Origin: Fibrobacterota bacterium
GTDB taxonomy: Bacteria > Fibrobacterota > Fibrobacteria > UBA11236
NCBI GenBank assembly: GCA_028287465.1
Contig: JAQBPO010000002.1
Span: 1 to 34,209, forward strand
DNA: 34,209 nt
Direction: 5' to 3'
Shown here: positions 4,121 to 15,562 of the stretch, piece by piece
Layout of the letters: every line of letters begins with the position of its first letter
How positions within the stretch are numbered: position 1 is the first letter of the stretch
Notes under the pieces: model-generated
What the model saw: the letters and a program-made list of their open reading frames with translations, nothing else
What the model was told of the DNA's origin: nothing
Database searches by the model: none
Program-made: the position numbers and the translations under genes

Positions 4121-5887
4121 ATGCATAAAATGAGCAAGCGGGATCCAATGCATCAAAACGGTTTCAGCGGGATTCGGGCCATAGCCTTAACTGGGTTGGC
4201 GGCCTTAGGCGCGATTTACGTCCAGAAGGCCGGCGCCCAGGAGCCCGCCCTTAAGGAAACCCGGTATTCCCTGACCCATGAGGATTTCCCCAATCCCGAG
4301 CGGGGTTGGTACCACTATTCGGAACTCAGCGCGTCTACGGGTTTCAGCAAAGCGAACAACAGCACCATTTCCTTCCTCAAGATCCGGGCCGACGCTTACA
4401 AGACCTCGGCCTTGCCTTCCGGCCTGCTCGACAATCTGCAAAAGGCCTTCGACACCGCCAGGCAGAACGGCATGAAGCTCATCCCCCGGGTCGCGTATAA
4501 CGATGGGCCGGGGGATGGCTGCAACCCATACGGCTGCGACGCTTCCAAGTCCATCATCAAGCAGCATATCGCCCAGTTGGCCCCGCTCTGGAAAAAGAAC
4601 AAGGACGTGATCTATATCATGGATCTGGGATTCATCGGGGGATGGGGGGAGTGGCATTCCTCCTCCAACGGCCTGGACAATAAGGCCGATCGCACGGACA
4701 TCCTTTTCACCCTTCTCGATTCCCTGCCGGCGGACCGAATGACCTACATCCGCTATCCCGCCTTCAAGCGCGAGATCTTCGGCGGATCCTTAGGTTCTGA
4801 GACCGAAGTCCTGGGGCCGGACCGCGCCTTCAACAAGAGCCGGATTGCCCGCGTGGGCCATTTGAACGATTGCTTCCTGTCCGGTCCGGATGATGTCGGG
4901 ACCTACCAACATGCGGATTGGCCCATTTCCAGGGAGATCGCCTATATCGGCGGTGAGGGCCGGTACACCCCTTTCGGGGGGGAAACATGCGCGTTACATG
5001 CCCGCAGCGAATGCGCCAACACCCTGAAGGAGATGGCGGCGCTCCACATCGATCATCTCAACCATGACTATGAAGGGAGCGTGATCACCCGCTGGGGGAC
5101 CCAGGGATGCATCGACACCATCAACCTGAAGCTGGGGCATCGCCTGGCCCTGGAATGGGCGAAAATGCCTGATAGCGTTAAGCCCGGAGGGACCTTGCAA
5201 CTGCGCTTCGCGATCCGGAATCACGGATACGGGGAACTTTTCAATCCGAGGGATGTGGAAGCGGTTCTGTACCAGCAGGGCGGGCGGTCCGAGGCGGCCG
5301 TCTTGGCCGTGGATCCCCGTTTCTGGGCCGGCGGTACCTCGGATACGGTCGAGGCCGCCCTTTCGGTGCCTACCGGCCTGCCTTCCGGCGTCTGGAAGGT
5401 GGGTTTGCGCTTGGCGGATAGGGATGCTTCCATCAAGGCCGACCCGAGGTATTCGATCCGGTTCGCCAATACCGGAACGTGGAATGCCCCTTCCGGGATC
5501 AATGATTTGAAGGCCGACCTGGTGGTTTCCCCCCAGGCCCCCGGCGCTTCCAATCCGGCCAATTCGACCTTCAAGGTGGTGTCCGGGCCGCCGATATGGA
5601 TCCGCATCGGCAAGGAGTCCATCGGGCCGGGGAGCTATGCCTTGATTCGCGAGGGCATGGGCGGCCTCCGCATTTCGACGCCCGTGCCGGATAGGGCCAC
5701 CCGGTTGGACGTCCGATTGTCGACCCTGGATGGCCGTGAAACCCGCCATTGGCGGATCGATGCCGCGGCCAATGGGACGTTCAGGGTGCCGATTGAGGAA
5801 ATCCCGGCTGGACGCTATGTCCTCGAAGCCGGGAAGGGAATCGGTTCACGGAAATGGCCGGTGCTCGTGGGGACCGTCAGGCCTTGA
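4121..5887 (+). CDS. secreted DUF4874/DUF4832 protein with C-terminal sorting-like tail
   Basis: This 588-residue protein starts at the ATG preceded by AGAAGGTGG (4108-4116); an upstream in-frame ATG at 4049 lacks such a site. The N-terminus is a signal peptide (IRAIALTGLAALGAI, cleavage likely after AGA-Q). The next part fits DUF4874: NPERGWYHYSEL, LIPRVAYND, then IMDLGFIGGWGEWH, a TIM-barrel-like motif with acidic residues as in glycoside hydrolases. DUF4832 follows with DHLNHDYEGSVITRWG. The C-terminal 70 residues contain LSTLDGRE and IPAGRYVLEAG, the pattern of type IX secretion sorting or FlgD-like beta domains. A polysaccharide-related function is plausible, but no activity is assigned to these DUFs. 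Confidence 0.83.
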   Translation: MHKMSKRDPMHQNGFSGIRAIALTGLAALGAIYVQKAGAQEPALKETRYSLTHEDFPNPERGWYHYSELSASTGFSKANNSTISFLKIRADAYKTSALPSGLLDNLQKAFDTARQNGMKLIPRVAYNDGPGDGCNPYGCDASKSIIKQHIAQLAPLWKKNKDVIYIMDLGFIGGWGEWHSSSNGLDNKADRTDILFTLLDSLPADRMTYIRYPAFKREIFGGSLGSETEVLGPDRAFNKSRIARVGHLNDCFLSGPDDVGTYQHADWPISREIAYIGGEGRYTPFGGETCALHARSECANTLKEMAALHIDHLNHDYEGSVITRWGTQGCIDTINLKLGHRLALEWAKMPDSVKPGGTLQLRFAIRNHGYGELFNPRDVEAVLYQQGGRSEAAVLAVDPRFWAGGTSDTVEAALSVPTGLPSGVWKVGLRLADRDASIKADPRYSIRFANTGTWNAPSGINDLKADLVVSPQAPGASNPANSTFKVVSGPPIWIRIGKESIGPGSYALIREGMGGLRISTPVPDRATRLDVRLSTLDGRETRHWRIDAAANGTFRVPIEEIPAGRYVLEAGKGIGSRKWPVLVGTVRP

Positions 5888-5917
5888 ACCCGACGGGAGG
5901 CCGGACCTCGAAAAGGA

Positions 5918-5938
5918 TTCCGGCCGGGGCGGCCGGAA
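5918..5938. terminator. possible hairpin between convergent DUF4832 and dnaE genes
   Basis: The 7-bp stem TCCGGCC / GGCCGGA with loop GGGGC lies between two converging genes. No clear T-run follows on either strand, so termination here is uncertain. Confidence 0.3.
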
Positions 5939-5956
5939 ATCCGGTAGTCCGGAACT

Positions 5957-8900
5957 TCAGTAGGACTTGGCGCTGAGCGAGACGTTCCCGGGACCGACGA
6001 TGCCCTCGAGGGAGCGGGTGCAATCCTTGTCCGGGGTGAGGCGCACCTTCTCGCTGACCATGATCATCTCTTCGCCGCCCTGGTGCTCAAGGTGCAGCAC
6101 CAACTGGCACTTCCCCGCGTATTCGGAACAGAGGTCGTGCAACAGCATGACGTTAGGTTCCTGGAGGCCGACGGTCTTCATGCGCACGTGCACGCTCCGG
6201 GTAAGGCGTTCGCGCGACTCGTTCAGGTTGATCACCTTCTGGGCGTTCAGCTTGAACATGGCCAGTTCTTCGTTGAAGGTCAGATTGCCGCGGATGAGGA
6301 CCATGGAATCGATTTCGACCAGGTTCCGCACTTCCTCGAAGACGTCCGACCAAAGGGTCACTTCCACCTTCCCGACGAAATCCTCGAGCTCGGCGAAGGC
6401 GAAGGTCTTATTGTCCTTGGGCGACAACTTGGTCTTGAGGCGCGTGATCATCCCGCCCAATACCACGGGGGCGCCTTGCGGGGCGCGGTATCGCTCGCCG
6501 TCCTTGGGCCTTTCCTGCTTGGTCTCGCCCACGACCATCCGCAGGCTTTCCGGATCAAGGGGGCAAGTGGTGAATCCCTTGAGTTCGATGCGGTAAGGCT
6601 CCAGGGGATGCCCGGACAGGAAGAGGCCCAGGACCTCCTTCTCCTTCTCCAGCATCTCGTTATAGGGCCAGGCCTCCACTTCGGGGGTGGGCGGTTCGCC
6701 GGTGTCCATCGATCCCGCGCCGGTGGAGTCCCCCCCGTCGCCGAACAGGGATACCTGGCCGATGGAACGGTCTTCCTGGAACGAGGAGGCATAGGCGATC
6801 GCGGTTTCGACCACGGCGAACATGCGCGCGCGGTTGACGGGGAATTCGTCCAGGGCGCCCGCAAGGATCAAGGACTCCAGGGCGCGCCGGTTCAGGTATT
6901 GCGCATCCACGCGCTTGCAGAGATCGAAGATGGTCGTGAAGGGGCCGCCCCGGTCGCGCTCTTCGACCATTTTCTCCACCGCCGACAGGCCGACGTTCTT
7001 GATGCCGCCCAATCCGTAGACGATCTTGCCTTCCTTGACCGTGAATTTGGCCTTGCTGGTATTGATGGCCGGGAAGAGCACTTCGATGCCCAGGGACCGG
7101 CAATCATTGAGGAGCACGACCAGGCGGGACGTATCGTGCATTTCCGAGTTCATATTCGCCGCCATGAATTCGGCGGGGTGGTGGGCCTTGAGGTAGGCGG
7201 TCTGGTAGGCCACGGCCGCGTAGGCGGCCGAATGGGATTTGTTGAAGGCGTAGCTCGAGAACGGGACCAGGACTTCCCAGATGCGTTCGGCCAGCTTGGG
7301 ATCGTACCCGCGCTCCTTGGCGCCGCCCACGAACTTGGGCTTCAGGTCGTCCATCTTCTTGAGGTCCTTCTTGGCCATCGCGCGCCGCAAAAGGTCGGCT
7401 CCGCCCAGGGAGAAGCCCGCCAGCACCTGGGCCAGCTGCATCACCTGCTCCTGGTACACGATGACGCCGTAGGTCTCCTCGAGGATGGGCTTGAGGTTGT
7501 CGTGGTAATAGTCCGGCTTCTCGTACCCGTTCTTGCGGGCGATGTACTCCGGGATGTATTCCATGGGGCCCGGCCGGTAAAGCGCGTTCATGGCGATGAG
7601 ATCCTCGATCACGGTGGGCTTGAGCTTGCGCAGGTAGTCCTGCATGCCGCCGGATTCGAACTGGAACACGCCCACGGTAAGGCCTTTGCCCAGCATCTGG
7701 AAGGTGGGCTTGTCCGTTTCGGGAAGCTTGAGCGGATCGATGACCAGGCCCGTCGAGGCTTTCACCTGGGCGAGGCAGTCCTGGATCTCGGAAAGGTTGC
7801 GCAGGCCCAGGAAGTCCATCTTCAGGAGGCCGATGTCCTCCGAGTACGTCTTGTCGTACTGGATCATCACCTGATCGGAACCGGGCTGCTTGAAAAGGGG
7901 GGCGAAGTTCACGATCGCCTTGGGCGCGATGATGACCGCCGCGGCGTGCATGCCCGCCTGGCGCACGAGGCCCTCCAGCTTGAGGGCGATCGCCTTGAGG
8001 TGTTCCAGGCCCGGTTCGCTCTCCATCTCCTTCTTGAGATCCGGTGACTCTTCCATGGCCGTGGACAGGTCCGCGAAGGGATTGAAAGCGGGGAAGAGCT
8101 TGCAGATCTGGTTGAGGCGCTGGGCCTCGAAGCCCATCACGCGGCCCACGTCGCGGAGCACCATCTTGGCCTTCATGCGGCCGTAAGTGACGATCTGGGA
8201 CACGGAATCGGTCCCGTACTTGTCGACCACGTACTGGATCACTTCCTGGCGGCCGTTGTCCGAGAAGTCCGTATCGATATCGGGCATGGACACGCGCTCG
8301 GGATTGAGGAAGCGCTCGAACAGCAGTTTGAAGCGGATGGGATCGACGTCCGTGATGCCGACGGCGTAGGAGACGATGGAACCCACCGCGGATCCGCGGC
8401 CGGGACCGACCGGAATGTCCCTGGCCCGGGCCGCATTGCAGAAGTCCTGCACGATGAGCATGTAGCCCGCGACCTTCATGCGCTTCATGACGTCCAGCTC
8501 GAACTGGGTGCGGTCCTTGAGCATGCGCACCCGGTCCGAACCGGCCTGGGCGGGATCAACGGTCTCGGGATAGCGCTTGGCCAGGCCTTCCCAGGTCAGG
8601 TGCGCCAGGTAGGCGTCGGAATCCGTGAACTCCGGGGGGATGGGGAACTGGGGGTGATGTAGTTTGCCGAACTCGATGGTCACGTTGCACTGCTCCGCGA
8701 TGCGCACCGTGTTCTCCAGCGCGTCCGGATAGTCCCTGAAGAGGGCGGCCATTTCCGAGCCGGAACGCAGGTAGTACTGGTCCGAATTGAAGCGCGGGCG
8801 GTTGGCATCCTTGTGCTTATGGCCGCCTTCGATGCAAAGCATCACGTCGTGGGCTTCCGAATCCTGGCGCTCCAGGTAATGCACGTCGTTCACGGCCACG

Positions 8901-9517
8901 AGCTTCCAGCCCTCGGCCTTGTGGAGTTCCAGGAAGCGGCGGTTGACGGTTTCCTCGTCCGGCAATCCGTGGGACTGCAGGCATAGGTAGACGTTCTCCT
9001 TGCCGAAGAAGGCGGCGTAGGCGTCCAGGATCTCCCTGGCCTTCTTCTCGTTGCCCTTGAGCAGGTAATAGCCGACCTCGCCCTGATGGTTGGACGTGAG
9101 GCAGATGAGGCCTTCGGAACGCCCGCGCAGGGAATCGTGATCGATGCGGGGCTTCTGGAAGAAGCCGTCCATGTACCCGTCCGAGCAGATGTGCATCAGG
9201 TTCTTGTATCCCGCGTCCGTGGCGGCGATCAGGATGACCTTATGGTGGATGGGCTGGTTCTGGGAATAGACCTGGTTCTGCCGCCTGTCCGGCGCCACGT
9301 AGAGGTCGCATCCGATTAGGGCCTTGATGCCGGCCTTCTTGGCGTACATGTGGAATTCCAGCATGCCGAACATGTTGCCGTGGTCGGTCAGGGCGATGGC
9401 GGTCTGCTTGAGCTCGAGGGCCTTCTTCACCAGCCCGGAAATGCGGGCCGAGGACTGGAGCATGGAATATTCGGAATGGGCGTGGAGGTGGACGAACGGG
9501 ACCTGGTTGGTTTCCAT
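5957..9517 (-). CDS. dnaE: DNA polymerase III alpha subunit
   Basis: This 1186-residue protein is the replicative polymerase alpha subunit (C-family), close to the usual length of about 1160. The PHP domain is at the N-terminus with the HLHAHSEYSML motif (His10, His12, His14), and LTDHGNMFG follows. The catalytic palm carries PDIDTDFSD (about 412-420), with GPGRGSAVGS just before it. Further conserved blocks are QYDKTYSEDIGLLKMDFLG, ALYRPGPMEYIP and FNKSHSAAYA. The C-terminal part has an OB fold (VVLGGMITRLKTKLSPKDNKTFAFAELED, shown only as VVLGG to AELED, near residue 1020-1050). It is the second gene of an operon: the upstream gene stops 4 bp before its ATG, and its own Shine-Dalgarno is weak. 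Confidence 0.97.
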   Translation of the reverse strand: METNQVPFVHLHAHSEYSMLQSSARISGLVKKALELKQTAIALTDHGNMFGMLEFHMYAKKAGIKALIGCDLYVAPDRRQNQVYSQNQPIHHKVILIAATDAGYKNLMHICSDGYMDGFFQKPRIDHDSLRGRSEGLICLTSNHQGEVGYYLLKGNEKKAREILDAYAAFFGKENVYLCLQSHGLPDEETVNRRFLELHKAEGWKLVAVNDVHYLERQDSEAHDVMLCIEGGHKHKDANRPRFNSDQYYLRSGSEMAALFRDYPDALENTVRIAEQCNVTIEFGKLHHPQFPIPPEFTDSDAYLAHLTWEGLAKRYPETVDPAQAGSDRVRMLKDRTQFELDVMKRMKVAGYMLIVQDFCNAARARDIPVGPGRGSAVGSIVSYAVGITDVDPIRFKLLFERFLNPERVSMPDIDTDFSDNGRQEVIQYVVDKYGTDSVSQIVTYGRMKAKMVLRDVGRVMGFEAQRLNQICKLFPAFNPFADLSTAMEESPDLKKEMESEPGLEHLKAIALKLEGLVRQAGMHAAAVIIAPKAIVNFAPLFKQPGSDQVMIQYDKTYSEDIGLLKMDFLGLRNLSEIQDCLAQVKASTGLVIDPLKLPETDKPTFQMLGKGLTVGVFQFESGGMQDYLRKLKPTVIEDLIAMNALYRPGPMEYIPEYIARKNGYEKPDYYHDNLKPILEETYGVIVYQEQVMQLAQVLAGFSLGGADLLRRAMAKKDLKKMDDLKPKFVGGAKERGYDPKLAERIWEVLVPFSSYAFNKSHSAAYAAVAYQTAYLKAHHPAEFMAANMNSEMHDTSRLVVLLNDCRSLGIEVLFPAINTSKAKFTVKEGKIVYGLGGIKNVGLSAVEKMVEERDRGGPFTTIFDLCKRVDAQYLNRRALESLILAGALDEFPVNRARMFAVVETAIAYASSFQEDRSIGQVSLFGDGGDSTGAGSMDTGEPPTPEVEAWPYNEMLEKEKEVLGLFLSGHPLEPYRIELKGFTTCPLDPESLRMVVGETKQERPKDGERYRAPQGAPVVLGGMITRLKTKLSPKDNKTFAFAELEDFVGKVEVTLWSDVFEEVRNLVEIDSMVLIRGNLTFNEELAMFKLNAQKVINLNESRERLTRSVHVRMKTVGLQEPNVMLLHDLCSEYAGKCQLVLHLEHQGGEEMIMVSEKVRLTPDKDCTRSLEGIVGPGNVSLSAKSY

Positions 9518-9521
9518 CCGG

Positions 9522-11495
9522 CTATTCCACGATCCTGAGGGCCTTGGCCTGTTCCAGCACGTACTCGTTCCGGTGCCCGGAGTCGAGTTCGATCCCGATG
9601 AACTTGATCGGGTCCTTGTGCTTGAGCAGCAAGAGGGGCTTCAGGGAGATGCGCTTCATGATCGGGGCCGCATAGCTGAACTCGATCTTCTTCTCTTCGG
9701 CGATGGCGTTTTCCAGGGTTTCGATCCGCTCCCTCATCTCCTGCTCTCGCGCTTCCTTGCCGTTCTTGTCCTTGGGCTCCTGCGCGGGCGCGCGCAAGGA
9801 GCCGGGAGACTCGCGGTACGCGGGCGGGCCGGGTTCCGGACGGGGGAGATCCCAGGCGTTCCCGATGCCGGCCAGGGATACGGGCGCCAGGTCCAAAACG
9901 CGGCGCGAATCCTCACCCGGAACCAGGCCGAAATGCTGGAGCAATTCCTTGACGCGGATCTTGTTGTTGCGATTCAGGGTGAACCCGTATTCCGGGATCA
10001 CTTCCGTGATCATCTCCAGGAATTGCGGGATCTCCTGCAGCTCGCGGAACCGGACGGGATCGGAAACCTTTAGGACCAAGGTGTCCATGAACAAGGTGGA
10101 GGCATAGGTGGAGGCCCATTCCAGCAAAGTCTGGGTTGCCGGGCCTTCGAATCCGAGCCAGCCGAGCAGATCCTTGAACTCTTCCATGGTGAGGCCCGCC
10201 TGCAGCCCCTGGATGACGGTCTCCTTGGTGAAGCGATAGCGTCCCATGAACTCGTCATTGCTCTTGAGGCCGACCAGCTCGAGTCGCTGCTGCCAGCCGA
10301 GCGGTGAATCCAAGGGTACCAGGCTTTCCATGTTGGGGAGGCTGATGGGCCGGGTCGGATGCCCGGTATTGCCGATTTCCTCCGGTCGCTGATTGCCCGC
10401 GTAAAAGATGCCGTCTTCGCCCCGCGACGCCATATGAGCCGCCAGTTGGGAAACCATGTCCCGGTCCGGGCGGACCCACGCGATGCGGCCTTTCGACATG
10501 CCGAAATCGACCAGGCCCAGGAGCCACAGTTCCTGGAGCGCCTTGGGCAGGTTCTCCCAGGTAAAGGAGGACTTCGGATCGTGATAACCCTTGCGATGCG
10601 GACCGGAATAGATCCACAGGATATTGGCCCAGGGCGAAACGCGGCCTGCCGCAGGTTCCGATGGGAATTGCGCTACGGCCCTGAGGGTATGGGCCATGCC
10701 ATACATGCGGGATTCCATCCACCATTCCGCGATCCTGCGCCAGGCGTCCCGGCGTTCCCCGCGCAAGAGGCTTTTGCCTTCCGCGGACAGGTGGAGGAGT
10801 CCGTCTTCCTGTTGCACCAGGGAGGCGCCTACCGCGAAGTGGAGGAGGAATTGCACTTCCTCCGCGGGCAGGCCCGAGGAAAGGCGTTCGCTGAAGGTGA
10901 ACCGCTGGGCCAGCTCCTGGGCATCCTTGCGGTGCATCTCGCCGTTCTGGGTGATCTTCACCGCTCCCAACGCCACCTGGCAGAGGAAGTGGCAAAGATG
11001 GGACGTCAGGAAATGGCGGAAGGAGATCCAGCTGGCCGTTTCGGCGCCGGCTCCGGACTGCCCGGCCTTGTCCGCCGAGGGCGTGCCCAGCCATTGGTCC
11101 TTGAGCACCGCCGGCAGCACCAGATCCGCGAGTTCACGGAAACCGTGGAAGGTCCGGCTCTTGTCGGCTTCCCGGGAGAAGATCAGGAGTTCCTGTTCGA
11201 GCTTTCCCAGAAGCATCAATGCTTGCGAGGGGGGGAAGGCTTCCAGGCTACCCAGGAGTTCCGCTTCCGCGGCTCCGCGTTCCTCGGAAGCGTAGACCAG
11301 GGCGATCAGGTGCCGGCCCTGGACGTCCGCGGATTTCAGGGAATCGGCGATGCGATCCGGTTTTACCGCCCAGTCGTACACCAATTGGATGACCTTCGCC
11401 GCCTGCATAAGGCCCTCGCCGGGCTGATCCCGGCGATGCAGTTTGATGACGAAGGATTTTGGGGCTGCCGTCAGGAATTCAAGGAGGGAATGCAA
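9522..11495 (-). CDS. helicase-associated (XPB/Ssl2 N-terminal-like) protein with C-terminal WYL-like domain
   Basis: The reading frame opens with TTG (TTG CAT TCC) preceded by GGGTGA about 7 nt upstream; the next in-frame ATG would drop 28 conserved-looking residues. The 657-residue protein has no ATPase motifs. Residues ~385-515 fit the Helicase_C_3 / XPB-Ssl2 N-terminal-like family: NMESLVPLDSPL, RYRFTKETVIQGLQAGLT and ATQTLLEWAS followed by a winged-helix-like end (RVKELLQHFGL). A Pro/charged linker (about 535-590) leads to a ~65-residue WYL-like end (IEFSYAAPIM, SLKPLLLL, RNEYVLEQAKALRIVE). Such proteins are presumed to bind nucleic acid, partnering XPB-type helicases in some bacteria; no helicase is visible here. 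Its stop is 4 bp from dnaE, implying co-transcription. The domain call is by eye. Confidence 0.72.
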   Translation of the reverse strand: MHSLLEFLTAAPKSFVIKLHRRDQPGEGLMQAAKVIQLVYDWAVKPDRIADSLKSADVQGRHLIALVYASEERGAAEAELLGSLEAFPPSQALMLLGKLEQELLIFSREADKSRTFHGFRELADLVLPAVLKDQWLGTPSADKAGQSGAGAETASWISFRHFLTSHLCHFLCQVALGAVKITQNGEMHRKDAQELAQRFTFSERLSSGLPAEEVQFLLHFAVGASLVQQEDGLLHLSAEGKSLLRGERRDAWRRIAEWWMESRMYGMAHTLRAVAQFPSEPAAGRVSPWANILWIYSGPHRKGYHDPKSSFTWENLPKALQELWLLGLVDFGMSKGRIAWVRPDRDMVSQLAAHMASRGEDGIFYAGNQRPEEIGNTGHPTRPISLPNMESLVPLDSPLGWQQRLELVGLKSNDEFMGRYRFTKETVIQGLQAGLTMEEFKDLLGWLGFEGPATQTLLEWASTYASTLFMDTLVLKVSDPVRFRELQEIPQFLEMITEVIPEYGFTLNRNNKIRVKELLQHFGLVPGEDSRRVLDLAPVSLAGIGNAWDLPRPEPGPPAYRESPGSLRAPAQEPKDKNGKEAREQEMRERIETLENAIAEEKKIEFSYAAPIMKRISLKPLLLLKHKDPIKFIGIELDSGHRNEYVLEQAKALRIVE

Positions 11496-11782
11496 ATCCA
11501 GTCACCCGGTTTCTGAAAAGTGGAAGGAGGTAAATATAACTCCAGGATTGCGTTCGGCTCCCCTCCCACCAAGCCCCTGGTCAAATTCTGCGTACGCAGA
11601 TTCTGCGTCCGGGTCAGAGGATGACCCGCCCGGATCGGGAAAACCCATTATATTTTGGGGTGATGGCCGAAAAACCGGGTCTGGCGCCCCAGGGTCCCTT
11701 GGCCCTGGAATTGCTTTAGAAAACGGTGGATACTAACCCTGTGTATGGCATGAATTCGCAGATCCCGAAGGCAATGGCCCCA
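11496..11782. promoter_or_regulatory. divergent promoter region with a 14-bp palindrome
   Basis: This region separates the dnaE operon (-) from the CBM9-like gene (+). It holds a perfect palindrome TCTGCGTACGCAGA (11587-11600) overlapped by two direct copies of ATTCTGCGT (11585-11593 and 11600-11608). On the minus strand a consensus -10 TATAAT (11647-11652) and a nearer TATATT (11533-11538) are candidates for the dnaE operon. A hairpin CCAGGG/CCCTGG (11689-11708) lies before the plus-strand gene. No additional gene is seen. Confidence 0.45.
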
Positions 11783-13009
11783 ATGTGCCCTAAAATCCGG
11801 TTTCAGTCCCCTGTCCTTGCCCGGTTTCTCCTGATCCTGGCCTTTTTTTGCGGTGCCGCCCATGCCCTCTACACCTTCGACGGGATCACGGCCACCCGTG
11901 TACCCGATGACCGCATCAAGGTGGACGGATCCCCGGATACCCTTTGGAAGGGCATTTACAACCTGACCAATGGCGGTTCCTCGATCCGTTTCAATGAATA
12001 CGGGAAGATGGTCATCCTGCAACCGGATTCGGCCCGGAATGCGGATCCGGCCAAATACGTCGCACCCGCTCCCACCGGTCTCATTTTCATGTTATCCGCC
12101 TACGACTCCAAGGCCCTGTACTTCTACTTCCAGGTGAAGGCGGCCACGGTGGCCAATTCGAAATCCCTATGCACCACGGCGGACAATTTCTGGAAGGCGG
12201 ATGCGCCGGAGATCTTCCTTGATCCCTCCGTCTGGGATCCGGATACGGCTGTCTACCGTTCCTACTTCTCGGCCGACGCGGGGGGGCTGATCTACGGCAC
12301 GTCTCCGAAGACCATCCAAATAGACAAGCCCATCAACGACAAGGATACGCGCGTCTTCTTCCGGAACCGGGCCGCCGGAGACAAGTTCCAACGGCCCGCC
12401 GTCACCCCGGCCGGCATCCTGGCGGTTTCCCAACGAAGCGCATCCGATACGACCCTGGTCTCGGTGGAAATCAAGATCCCCTATTGGAGCGGAGTCTTCC
12501 CGACGAACTTCGGACCGGGGAAATCCATGTTCATATCCTGGGGCTACAATATGTATCCGGCCAGCCTTTGGGCCAATTGCAACGCGGATCCCATCGCCTA
12601 TCGCTGGGCAAAGCATTATCTGAGCTACGAAGACGCCGCCACCAAGCCCCCGGGATGGCGCGCCCATGACAGCACCCATTACGATCCCTTGCGTTCCTGG
12701 GACGGGTGGGGGCGGTTCACGATGAATTCTTCGAGCGTTTTCGATCCGAAGTGCTCATTCACCCTGCCTGCCTCCTGGAATACCGAAGATTGGAAGCGAT
12801 CCAGTTGCGGGCAACCGGTGACCAGCCTTGGGTACCCGGAATCCTCCGGCTCGCGCTTTCGGGCCGGTTCCGGATCCAACCGCAATGCGGAACGCGGCAG
12901 GGACTTGCGTGGCCGCGCGGCCCAGGATCGATCGGGGATGCTCATCTTCCCGTTGGAAGCGATGGACGGAGGACCCAAGGTACGGCCTGAACGTATCGTC
13001 CCTCTCTGA
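11783..13009 (+). CDS. secreted protein with CBM9-like domain
   Basis: From ATG 11783 (AAGG about 10 nt upstream) the protein has 408 residues; in-frame ATGs at 11750 and 11774 are alternatives. The signal peptide is clear (CPKIRFQSPVLARFLLILAFF, here only to residue ~20; cleavage likely after AHA). The mature part is a carbohydrate-binding family 9/DOMON-like beta-sandwich: IKVDGSPDTLWKGIY, then DSKALYFYFQVKA, then DNFWKADAPEIFLDPS, the usual order 'small change from zero, visible in solution, high-value target'. The last 60 residues are rich in Arg/Ser/Gly and contain DLRGR and VRPERIVPL, which resembles a short sorting tail. No catalytic motif was seen. It probably binds polysaccharides outside the cell. 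Confidence 0.72.
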   Translation: MCPKIRFQSPVLARFLLILAFFCGAAHALYTFDGITATRVPDDRIKVDGSPDTLWKGIYNLTNGGSSIRFNEYGKMVILQPDSARNADPAKYVAPAPTGLIFMLSAYDSKALYFYFQVKAATVANSKSLCTTADNFWKADAPEIFLDPSVWDPDTAVYRSYFSADAGGLIYGTSPKTIQIDKPINDKDTRVFFRNRAAGDKFQRPAVTPAGILAVSQRSASDTTLVSVEIKIPYWSGVFPTNFGPGKSMFISWGYNMYPASLWANCNADPIAYRWAKHYLSYEDAATKPPGWRAHDSTHYDPLRSWDGWGRFTMNSSSVFDPKCSFTLPASWNTEDWKRSSCGQPVTSLGYPESSGSRFRAGSGSNRNAERGRDLRGRAAQDRSGMLIFPLEAMDGGPKVRPERIVPL

Positions 13010-13137: not shown

Positions 13138-13365
13138 TTACATCGGGTTGTCGCGCTTGCCGCTATTGTCGTATTCGATGCCGATGGTGCCGACCGGGCA
13201 GCCTTCCGCGGCCTCGACGATTTCATCGGTCAATTCCAGCTTGGCGCCGTTCTTCACCACCATCTTCTCGGGAACCTCGAAGACTTCGGGGCACGTGGCT
13301 TCGCAAGCCCCGCACATGGTGCACTCATTCTCGCTCTCGTCCAGCCAAACCTTGGTAACTGCCAT
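13138..13365 (-). CDS. single-cluster [4Fe-4S] ferredoxin
   Basis: This 75-residue acidic protein carries the ferredoxin pattern C-x2-C-x2-C-x3-C-P (ECTMCGACEATCPEVFEV) and a distal EGCPVGTIGIEY. This is the layout of one-cluster bacterial ferredoxins of the Thermotoga/Desulfovibrio type, where Cys 1, 2, 3 and the distal Cys bind the cluster. The extra Cys that forms a disulfide with the fourth Cys in some relatives is absent. It is a soluble low-potential electron carrier; the redox partner is unknown. The ATG is preceded by AGGAG (9 nt) and by a -10 box TAGAAT. It is a single-gene unit converging on the CBM9-like gene. Confidence 0.92.
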   Translation of the reverse strand: MAVTKVWLDESENECTMCGACEATCPEVFEVPEKMVVKNGAKLELTDEIVEAAEGCPVGTIGIEYDNSGKRDNPM

Positions 13366-13408: not shown

Positions 13409-13624
13409 GTCCGCCGATTGGGCGGGGGTTGCCGCCAAATTGGCAGCAAAAGCGCCTTGAAAAATGGAAGCGTTCTTACGCTAAAGAAGATACTAGGCGC
13501 CCGGGCCTTTGGCAAGAGCCCTTTGCGGCCGCTTGTTGCGCCTAAGTCATGCGAATGCGGCGACTTATTTCGCCCAACCCAAGCGGATCCTGCGCCGGCG
13601 CTACAAACCGCGGGGTCTCCTTGC

Positions 13625-13640
13625 TATTTTTGACCTTGCT
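13625..13640 (+). promoter_or_regulatory. -10 box close to argC start (probable leaderless mRNA)
   Basis: TATTTT (13625-13630) lies 10 nt before the argC ATG and no Shine-Dalgarno is present in between. The expected transcription start would be within a few bases of the start codon. The -35 region is not recognisable. Confidence 0.4.
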
Positions 13641-14681
13641 ATGCCAAATACCCAAATACAGGTCGGTATCCTAGGCGCCACGGGTTTCACCGGCTGCGAG
13701 CTGGTCGGCCTGCTCTTGCGCCACCCCCGGGCGGAAATCGCCTGGCTCAGTTCGGAATCCCAGCCGGGAACGGCCTACGGAAAGGTGTATCCGCAATACC
13801 TGGGAAGACTCCCGCCCCAGGTGGAGAAGATGCGCAGCTTCGAGGACGTTAAGGCGACGGTACCCGACGTCGTGTTCTCCTGCCTTCCCCATGGAGCGTC
13901 CGCCGAATGCGCCGCGCCATTCCTCATGAACGGCAAGACCATCGTCATCGATCTCTCCGCGGACTTCCGGCTGAAGGATCCGAAAGCCTACGCCGAGGCC
14001 TACGCGCACACGCATCCCATGCCGGAGCGGTTGAAGGAGAGCCGGTACGGCCTTTGCGAAGTCCACGGAGGGGAAATCAAGGGCGCGCGATTGATCGCGA
14101 ATCCCGGATGTTACCCAACCTCGGCCATCCTCCCGCTTTACCCGCTCATCAGGGACGGCGTCGTATCGCCGGACGGGATCATCATCGACGCAAAGTCGGG
14201 CGTGTCCGGAGCGGGCAAGAAACCCACCGAGACGACCCATTACGTGATGGCGAACGAAAGCGTGACCGCGTACGGAGTGGGGGACAAGCACCGCCATCGG
14301 TGGGAGATCATCGAGCAACTGTCCCTGGCCGCGGGCCGGAAGCTGGACCTGCTCTTCACCGCGCATCTGATCCCGATGGAGCGCGGGATCCTCTCCACCA
14401 TCTATTGCGATCTGGCCGACGGGAAGACCGCTGCCCTCGCCGAGGCCTGCCTGCGCAAGCAATACGAGGGGTCGGACTTCGTGCGCATCCGCGAAGATTT
14501 TCCGCGTACCGGGGACGTGAAGCATTCGAACTTCTGCCACATGAAGGTCTACCAGCCCGCGGGCGGCCGCAAGCTCATCATCGTATCGGTCATCGATAAC
14601 ATGGTGAAAGGCGCCTCCGGGCAGGCTTTGCAGAACATGAACATCGCCCTCGGCCTGCCCGAAACCCTCGGGCTGGCCTGA
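13641..14681 (+). CDS. argC: N-acetyl-gamma-glutamyl-phosphate reductase
   Basis: This 346-residue enzyme reduces N-acetylglutamyl phosphate to the semialdehyde with NADPH, the third step of arginine synthesis. The N-terminal nucleotide loop is GILGATGFTG. The catalytic cysteine is Cys157 in ANPGCYPTSA. Other family blocks are SCLPHGAS, DLSADFRLKD and GVSGAGKKPTE. The length is that of the long (type 1) ArgC. The ATG at 13641 was chosen because the protein should begin just before the Rossmann strand; upstream frame extension reads as Arg-rich, non-homologous sequence. The stop is 8 nt from argB, so the two form an operon. Confidence 0.97.
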   Translation: MPNTQIQVGILGATGFTGCELVGLLLRHPRAEIAWLSSESQPGTAYGKVYPQYLGRLPPQVEKMRSFEDVKATVPDVVFSCLPHGASAECAAPFLMNGKTIVIDLSADFRLKDPKAYAEAYAHTHPMPERLKESRYGLCEVHGGEIKGARLIANPGCYPTSAILPLYPLIRDGVVSPDGIIIDAKSGVSGAGKKPTETTHYVMANESVTAYGVGDKHRHRWEIIEQLSLAAGRKLDLLFTAHLIPMERGILSTIYCDLADGKTAALAEACLRKQYEGSDFVRIREDFPRTGDVKHSNFCHMKVYQPAGGRKLIIVSVIDNMVKGASGQALQNMNIALGLPETLGLA

Positions 14682-14689
14682 GGCCGGCG

Positions 14690-15562
14690 ATGGCCCGCAA
14701 TCCCATGCCTGAATCCCTCCTACGCCCGACCGTCATCAAGATCGGCGGCTCCATGATGGACGATGAAGCCGCCCTGAAGGCCCTGTGCGCGGCCCTGGCC
14801 GGGTTGCGCAAGGCGGACGCGTCCAAGGCGACCGGAAAAGCGACATCCCTGAACGGACCGGAAAAGGCGCCGGCACCCTTGGTGCCAGCACCCTTGGTGC
14901 TCGTGCACGGTGGCGGAAAGGATATCAACCGGCATCTGGCCTGGCTCCAGGAAGACCCCGTTTTCAAGGACGGCCTGCGCGTGACCGGGATCGCCGCCCT
15001 GAAGGTGGTGGAGATGACCCTGAGCGGATTCGTGAACAAGAAGCTGGTCGGCCTTCTCAACGCGGAAGGCGGTTCCGCCGCAGGCATAAGCGGCGTGGAC
15101 GGACCGACCCTCATTTGCGAGAAGATCTCGGAAGAGTTGGGGCAAGTGGGCCGGATCGTCTCCGTCCATACGCAACTGGTCGAAACCCTCCTGGCCGGAG
15201 GCTTCCTTCCGGTCGTGTCGCCCATTTCCGTGGATGCCGCCCAGGCCCATTACAACGTGAACGCCGATGACGCGGCCGCCGCCCTGGCCGCCGCGCTGCA
15301 TGCGGAAAAGCTGATCTTCGTCTCGGACGTGGAGGGCGTGCGCGGCGCGGACGGGGTCCGGATCCCGGAGCTGGACGCGATCGGCATCGAACGTCTCATC
15401 GCCGACGGGACGGCATCCGGAGGCATGATCCCGAAGCTGAATTCCTGCCGCGCCGCGGTAGCGGGCGGTATCGGCCAGGTGCATATCTGCGGTTGGGCCG
15501 GCCCGGAGAAATTCGCCGCGCAGGTGCGGGGCGAGGGGAATACCGGGACCATAATCCGGTGA
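14690..15562 (+). CDS. argB: acetylglutamate kinase with a low-complexity insertion
   Basis: This 290-residue enzyme phosphorylates N-acetylglutamate. Conserved blocks are KIGGS (17-21), VHGGGKDI (from 72), GLRVT, NVNADDAAAALA and the C-terminal SGGMIPKL. Compared with E. coli ArgB, about 22 extra residues lie between the first beta-strand/helix and the VHGGG loop (about 41-65). They are rich in Lys, Ala and Pro and end in a duplicated APLVPAPLV. The ATG is preceded by GAGG overlapping the argC stop. ArgB is often the feedback-controlled step; whether this one is arginine-sensitive cannot be read here. A terminator follows. Confidence 0.96.
   Translation: MARNPMPESLLRPTVIKIGGSMMDDEAALKALCAALAGLRKADASKATGKATSLNGPEKAPAPLVPAPLVLVHGGGKDINRHLAWLQEDPVFKDGLRVTGIAALKVVEMTLSGFVNKKLVGLLNAEGGSAAGISGVDGPTLICEKISEELGQVGRIVSVHTQLVETLLAGGFLPVVSPISVDAAQAHYNVNADDAAAALAAALHAEKLIFVSDVEGVRGADGVRIPELDAIGIERLIADGTASGGMIPKLNSCRAAVAGGIGQVHICGWAGPEKFAAQVRGEGNTGTIIR
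14873..14900. repeat. tandem self-complementary repeat inside argB
   Basis: GCACCCTTGGTGC occurs at 14873-14885 and again at 14888-14900, separated by CA. Each copy is itself an inverted repeat GCACC-CTT-GGTGC. It encodes the duplicated A-P-L-V segment of the ArgB insertion. Confidence 0.75.

Follow-up and report, generated by a model that had tools for sequence, protein, structure and literature searches.

The p52-like gene and dnaE

The window analysed here is a stretch of 34,209 nucleotides (nt) from a Fibrobacterota bacterium (class Fibrobacteria, UBA11236; GCA_028287465.1, contig JAQBPO010000002.1, positions 1-34,209, forward strand). Its minus strand carries a gene for a protein of 657 amino acids (aa) at 9522-11495, with a TTG start, followed directly by dnaE at 5957-9517, which encodes the 1186 aa alpha subunit of DNA polymerase III (Pol III). 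The 657 aa protein, which consists of a winged-helix array, a clutch and a WYL-fold domain, is a distant relative of p52, a TFIIH subunit that in yeast and human cells grips the DNA-opening motor XPB and drives it; the 657 aa protein is referred to below as the p52-like protein. Between the stop codon of its gene and the ATG of dnaE lie 4 base pairs (bp; 9518-9521, CCGG), so that the coding strand reads TAG-CCGG-ATG. An earlier reading of this DNA, made without database searches (hereafter the sequence-only reading), had described a 657-residue protein 4 bp before dnaE; both open reading frames (ORFs) and the gap are indeed there. With 1358.5 bits, the DnaE protein clears the equivalog cut-off of 1002 that NCBIfam sets for Pol III alpha (PRK05673). 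As neither ATG, GTG nor TTG is found upstream of the TTG before the in-frame TGA, and the N-terminus of the p52-like protein is kept in relatives, the TTG start is credible.

The large ORFs on either side are on the plus strand; 4049-5887 matches DUF4874/DUF4832 and 11726-13009 has a weak CBM9-like match. Because these next large ORFs both sit on the other strand, the predicted transcription unit comprises two genes only. The operon of 5957-11495 proposed in the sequence-only reading thus holds for the p52-like gene and dnaE, which share a strand, and extends to nothing further. A scan of 5600-12000 for sigma-70-like promoters found none (1.0 in shuffles), and terminator-like sites occur at the shuffled rate (6 against 5.5). 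The p52-like gene is single-copy in the window's genome. The closest named relative of the protein, at 81% identity, is L073, from a "Fibrobacteria bacterium".

Domain architecture and relation to p52

A full-length model of the p52-like protein was calculated with AlphaFold2 from an alignment of 46 sequences (A2) and has a predicted local distance difference test score (pLDDT) of 86.9. When the model was searched against the PDB with Foldseek, the top rows were p52/Tfb2 chains, the best being 8ebs_D (E 7.9e-9, 552 alignment columns); 6trs_B ("TFIIH subunit p52 in complex with p8") followed with E 1.6e-5 and WYL proteins formed the next group. Most of the p52 rows were recognised by entry and chain letter; 8ebt_D, 7o4i_2 and 6trs_A are also named in the profile search described below, and 6trs and 6tru are identified by their titles. 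VIA-align superposed the p52 chain 7nvv_2 on residues 158-522 (Z 10.1, rmsd 8.3, 263 aligned), and several p52 alignments extend to model residue 522 and p52 residue 458 and may take in the p8-dimerising module.

All domains are given here with their coordinates on the minus strand. The first winged helix (residues 34-136, 11088-11396) is ArsR/MarR-like, with SqrR 6o8k as a match (Z 10.1, rmsd 4.0, 92 aligned), and aligns with the first winged helix of p52. Further winged helices (residues 137-360, 10416-11087) are collinear with p52 118-319. The clutch, which has the Helicase_C_3/XPB N-terminal domain (NTD) fold, and a small C-terminal module after it occupy residues 378-525 (9921-10364). The XPB NTD of 7egb_6 superposes on residues 379-467 with Z 11.1 and rmsd 2.1 over 88 residues. 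The clutch of p52 (306-399) is itself described as sharing the fold of the XPB NTD and pairing with it (PMC6422496), which explains the XPB-N-like impression that the sequence-only reading had gained from this region.

A p52 match could arise through the XPB-like clutch only. As a control, residues 1-362 were folded alone (pLDDT 91.7). With the clutch removed, p52 chains still occupied Foldseek rows 1 to 6, weakly (best E 2.4e-3). The N-terminal half of p52, 6tru_D, was superposed with Z 9.2 and rmsd 3.6 Å over 157 residues (model 127-353 on p52 121-318), and p52 8ebt_D 27-292 was placed on model 39-353 with Z 8.1, rmsd 14.8 and 219 residues aligned. The VIA ranking of this half is headed by single winged helices of the ArsR type, with 6tru_D in row 11; we regard the top rows as tied since the Z score of 6tru_D is within 1 of the highest. 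In the models, therefore, the winged-helix array of residues 1-360 is laid out as in p52, and a predicted clutch homologous to the XPB NTD follows it, in the p52 order. Mean conservation is 0.53 in the clutch core, 0.59 in the following module, 0.47-0.49 in the winged helices and 0.40 in the WYL part (missing rows counted against).

The sequence-only reading was also right that ATPase motifs are missing: regular expressions found neither a P-loop nor a DExx box in the window protein, and Pfam gave no ATPase family. We considered whether the protein might be an XPB shorn of its motor and rejected this, as residues 1-360 resemble p52 and a complete XPB is also present in the genome. A defence system was likewise rejected; PADLOC gave weak partial matches for the window protein (MkoB 0.011, WYL 0.028, ZorB 0.038) and none for two relatives.

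A Helicase_C_3-like region, claimed in the sequence-only reading, is sub-threshold in the window protein, is matched by relatives and has the XPB NTD fold in the model. Pfam Helicase_C_3 is matched by 19 of 41 class members (best 1.5e-5) and by 17/20 proteins from other classes of the phylum (best 1.4e-10); one of the latter, the dnaE-linked relative L147, is above the cut-off with 41.7 bits. Profile A3, made from the other classes of Fibrobacterota, reaches 12 genomes outside the phylum (G277, E 5.6e-21). Ten out-of-phylum proteins were scanned and all ten exceed the Helicase_C_3 cut-off; several also show weak Tfb2 matches (best 2e-4, 20.8 bits). A profile of 17 members (A5), eleven from outside the phylum and six from Fibrobacterota including the window protein, finds p52 6trs_A in the PDB with E 1e-7, the alignment spanning winged helix and clutch. 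Yeast TFB2 (3.6e-5) and human p52 (0.0023) are also found, and the human XPB NTD (9e-5) stands behind 6trs_A. A PDB search with the single window sequence found nothing, and profile A1, built from the class, brought up mostly winged-helix regulators with E values of 0.067 and above. The link to p52 thus emerged only with the structural model and with a profile that takes in other phyla; homology has direct support from structure, and from sequence by way of intermediates.

The last domain, residues 579-657 (9525-9761), has a clear WYL fold in the model, as the sequence-only reading had supposed. PafBC 9fnd_X superposes on residues 576-657 (Z 11.9, rmsd 3.3, 82 aligned) and DriD in complex with single-stranded DNA, 7tzv_M, on the tail with Z 11.4 and rmsd 2.3 over 73 residues. 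Pfam WYL does not match the window protein and matches five of 41 class members (best 6.1e-5). In WYL domains, nucleic acid is contacted by the basic residue that follows F-x-L in the conserved motif. At this place (position 648) none of the 36 class sequences that have a residue there carries a basic one, whereas 14/20 proteins from other classes have R or K. The whole domain is gone in relatives of about 510-540 aa (10 of the 46 rows of A2), so the tail is optional. The WYL-less proteins are L101, L109, L111, L122, L129, L130, L133-L135 and L137, several of them titled Candidatus Fibrimonas or Fibrimonadaceae. With the tail missing in these relatives of around 530 aa and the basic residue lost in the class, nucleic-acid sensing by the WYL domain, as put forward in the sequence-only reading, is not a safe assumption for the window's clade.

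Genomic partners

All 61 genomes in the set of class relatives, among them the window's own, encode the p52-like protein. A profile search of the phylum found it in 158/167 genomes and in 86 of the 89 of good quality. The gene is still kept in other classes, whose proteins share no more than about 15-17% identity with that of the window. A Fibrobacter-type copy of the gene also turns up on L099, a contig recorded as "uncultured Firmicutes RUG521" that is probably misbinned.

A lack of Helicase_C_3 or WYL similarity in profile searches, or of the dnaE linkage in relatives, had been set beforehand as grounds for abandoning the sequence-only reading. Neither is the case: relatives match both families, and the linkage is present. 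Of the 36 genomes outside the class that could be decided, 33 have the p52-like gene immediately upstream of dnaE in the same orientation, with match coordinates as the sole basis for eight of them; G061, G089 and G090 depart from the pattern. The 36 are the 41 genomes outside the class less three in which contigs end (G067, G079, G097) and two without the protein (G073, G087). An overlap of exactly 4 bp with dnaE occurs in 15 fetched loci (L148-L153, L159-L165, L183, L189) and suggests translational coupling. Within the class, 14 of the 41 fetched loci are directly linked, in a sample where the succinogenes group is heavily represented, and L049 would be a fifteenth, with dnaE 1.2 kb downstream. 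Every one of the six genomes from the window's genus retains the linkage, as do the genome from f2, a related family, and several genera of Fibrobacteraceae, F. intestinalis included (L146, where the gap to dnaE is 105 bp). The association of the two genes is far beyond chance. Given its spread across classes, the simplest view is that it was already present in the ancestor of the phylum and that several losses followed. The p52-like frame of G086 is split into three overlapping pieces ahead of dnaE (L179:7291-9301), which may reflect gene decay or faulty assembly.

A gene for a DinG-type helicase, which has an exonuclease domain at its N-terminus (RNase_T, Helicase_C_2), precedes the p52-like gene by no more than 134 bp in 18 of the 29 loci fetched from Fibrobacteraceae (L036, L039-L045, L056, L057, L062, L063, L066-L068, L070, L185, L186; e.g. 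L043:5213-7960). Six Fibrobacteraceae loci have dinG, the p52-like gene and dnaE in a row. DinG has been called the XPD homologue (PMC3353954), and its adjacency hints at an excision-type pathway; the order may also be due to chance.

Given the p52-like N-terminal array and clutch, the obvious partner is the XPB motor, which is encoded elsewhere in the genome. The window's genome has a full XPB of 570 aa (ERCC3_RAD25_C 174.6 bits, Helicase_C_3 119.3 bits), and XPB is found in 159/167 genomes of the phylum, including all 89 good ones. Outside the phylum (about 224 genomes; 391 were searched, of which 167 belong to the phylum) XPB is present in 17 of 20 genomes with a p52-like protein and in 8 of 204 without one (Fisher 8e-17, a value to be read with the facts that A5 includes 11 of the sequences it finds and that the genomes are not independent). 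A p52-like protein was counted here only at E ≤ 1e-30 because weaker A5 matches (about 1e-5 to 1e-21) can stem from XPB's own NTD; G305 (4.6e-27), G274 and other weak rows were thereby dropped. Both positions are known in 14 out-of-phylum genomes; in 9 of these the XPB gene immediately precedes that of the p52-like protein in the same orientation, with gaps of -32 to 241 bp. None of the 17 fetched out-of-phylum loci has dnaE near the p52-like homologue. From this co-occurrence and adjacency, the usual genomic partner of the family is XPB; in Fibrobacterota it is dnaE.

Unnamed bacterial proteins behind XPB (L169, L171-L173, L176-L178, L192, L193) have winged helices and Helicase_C_3 in the same domain order and give long profile matches. 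They differ from the window protein in being XPB-linked and not dnaE-linked, and several stop before the WYL tail. Rv0862c of M. tuberculosis is presumably one such XPB-adjacent protein.

Proposed role and alternatives

p52 is reported to recruit XPB by pairing of clutch and NTD and to stimulate its ATPase (PMC6422496). On balance we think it probable that the window protein is a bacterial p52-type subunit which clamps and regulates XPB and is made together with DnaE. The winged-helix scaffold would carry the clutch and the WYL-fold tail. The clutch would most likely pair with the NTD of the XPB translocase in the same cell, in the manner of p52 and XPB in TFIIH; we infer this binding because clutch and XPB NTD occur in two proteins of one cell, as they do in TFIIH. 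Such pairing would position the XPB motor domains, and XPB could thereby be recruited or switched on at damaged or stalled DNA, presumably with stimulation of its ATPase. The p52-like gene and dnaE are probably translated together, which would keep the XPB regulator in step with the replicase. A role in repair or fork rescue would fit, with opening by XPB followed by synthesis; any contact with DnaE itself is likewise something we infer.

The likeness to TFIIH p52 (Tfb2, GTF2H4; PF03849) lies in the winged helices followed by a clutch, and p52 heads the structural matches over most of residues 1-525. The window protein differs in being bacterial, in its extra WYL-fold tail, in falling under the Pfam Tfb2 cut-off and in its coupling to dnaE, and no TFIIH is known around it. 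With XPB (Helicase_C_3, PF13625) it shares the fold of residues 379-467; unlike XPB it lacks the helicase motor and is a separate protein alongside the complete XPB of the same genome. The WYL regulators PafBC, DriD, BrxR and CapW share the fold of the C-terminal 80 residues. They are transcription regulators by their entry titles, whereas here the WYL domain follows a p52-like body and has lost the basic residue in the class. Bax1 is a partner protein of archaeal XPB (PMC13024598). It resembles our candidate as the partner of a prokaryotic XPB and differs in being an XPG-related nuclease; nothing nuclease-like was matched in the p52-like protein.

Several observations weigh against a p52-type partner of XPB. 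The window protein alone scores under the Pfam Helicase_C_3 cut-off (16.2 bits against 34.2, E 0.011) and has no Tfb2 match at E up to 1 (gathering score 34.5 bits); since it was tested against the Tfb2 cut-off and falls below it, we call it a p52-like homologue and not a Tfb2 member. Profiles from Fibrobacterota alone reach p52 at E 0.18 (A3) or fail to do so (A1), and the sequence link therefore runs via homologues in other phyla. Superpositions of p52 over most of its length have a large rmsd of 8-20 Å, the domains being set differently. Within the phylum XPB never adjoins the p52-like gene (0/74 fetched stretches), and three of the 20 out-of-phylum genomes with a p52-like protein have no XPB that we could see (G243, G263, G364). 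Linkage to dnaE is lost in whole genera, among them the F. succinogenes group (g4) and the Fibrimonas group (g11).

The foremost alternative is a replisome or repair accessory acting via DnaE, whose winged helices and WYL tail bind DNA or the polymerase, with the clutch-like domain a dimerisation remnant and XPB uninvolved. The linkage outside the class, often with the 4 bp overlap, is what such a protein would lead one to expect, and it is the main dnaE that is linked. Elsewhere in the window's genome there is another, distant DnaE-like ORF (G000:C18:37376-40192, about 32% identity, 1186 aa frame); we take it to be probably of the error-prone type. The linkage is nonetheless dispensable, the F. 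succinogenes group and others keeping the protein without it, and homologues in other phyla adjoin XPB and never dnaE in the loci fetched. Conservation of the clutch core and of the following module equals or exceeds that of most other parts, which sits poorly with a remnant. We consider this alternative unlikely.

Less likely still is a WYL-type transcription regulator of its own two-gene operon, setting the level of dnaE on sensing a nucleic acid or a nucleotide as ligand. The winged helices do match DNA-binding domains of the ArsR/MarR type, the tail matches the WYL activators and repressors PafBC, DriD and BrxR, and the gene is upstream of dnaE. A regulator of this kind has no place for the clutch, however, and its sensor would be the very tail that the shorter relatives have lost and in which the class lacks the basic residue; the promoter scan of 5600-12000 also found no sigma-70-like site around which an operator could be sought. 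That the gene is a passenger with an unrelated housekeeping job, held in an ancestral order without functional meaning, is improbable: the Fibrobacteraceae stretch does also hold signal-peptidase-like, Ig-like and lpxB-like genes (the first and last named by eye), as mixed housekeeping clusters do, but the junction is kept by relatives at about 15-17% identity, and 15 fetched loci have the overlap at exactly 4 bp while other neighbours change between families.

Returning to the p52-type partner of XPB, a wider proposal can be made tentatively. Bacteria with XPB might hold a small TFIIH-like opening module of XPB and p52, older than TFIIH or parallel to it, and in Fibrobacterota this module might be tied to the replicase by translational coupling. 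The dinG (XPD family), p52-like and dnaE genes that stand in a row in some Fibrobacteraceae would then point to a single pathway, of excision and resynthesis or of fork rescue, in which Pol III works with XPB and a relative of XPD.

In 2012 it was stated that bacteria had yielded no homologues of p44 and p52 (PMC3353954). Our literature search, which covered few subscription papers so that an earlier report elsewhere is possible, returned no report of a bacterial p52, Tfb2 or TFIIH; with the same coverage, no paper was found that joins XPB with a WYL domain. A 2026 review describes the function of XPB in archaea and bacteria as "more elusive" (PMC13024598). Our results suggest that bacterial XPB also has a partner. 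With a p52-like candidate in genomes that have XPB, the question of XPB function becomes a simple binding and ATPase test. Through the conserved dnaE link XPB would be connected with replication or with repair synthesis, and the family is relevant to the origin of TFIIH.

We note finally some minor features around the two genes. A G+C-rich hairpin of 8 pairs (11689-11708) lies between the p52-like gene and its divergent neighbour. Beyond that neighbour, a ferredoxin-like ORF of 75 aa (13138-13365, minus strand) stands beside argC-like (13509-14681) and argB-like (14690-15562) ORFs on the plus strand, the names being given by eye from the translations. This set of three ORFs recurs near the p52-like gene within the window's family.

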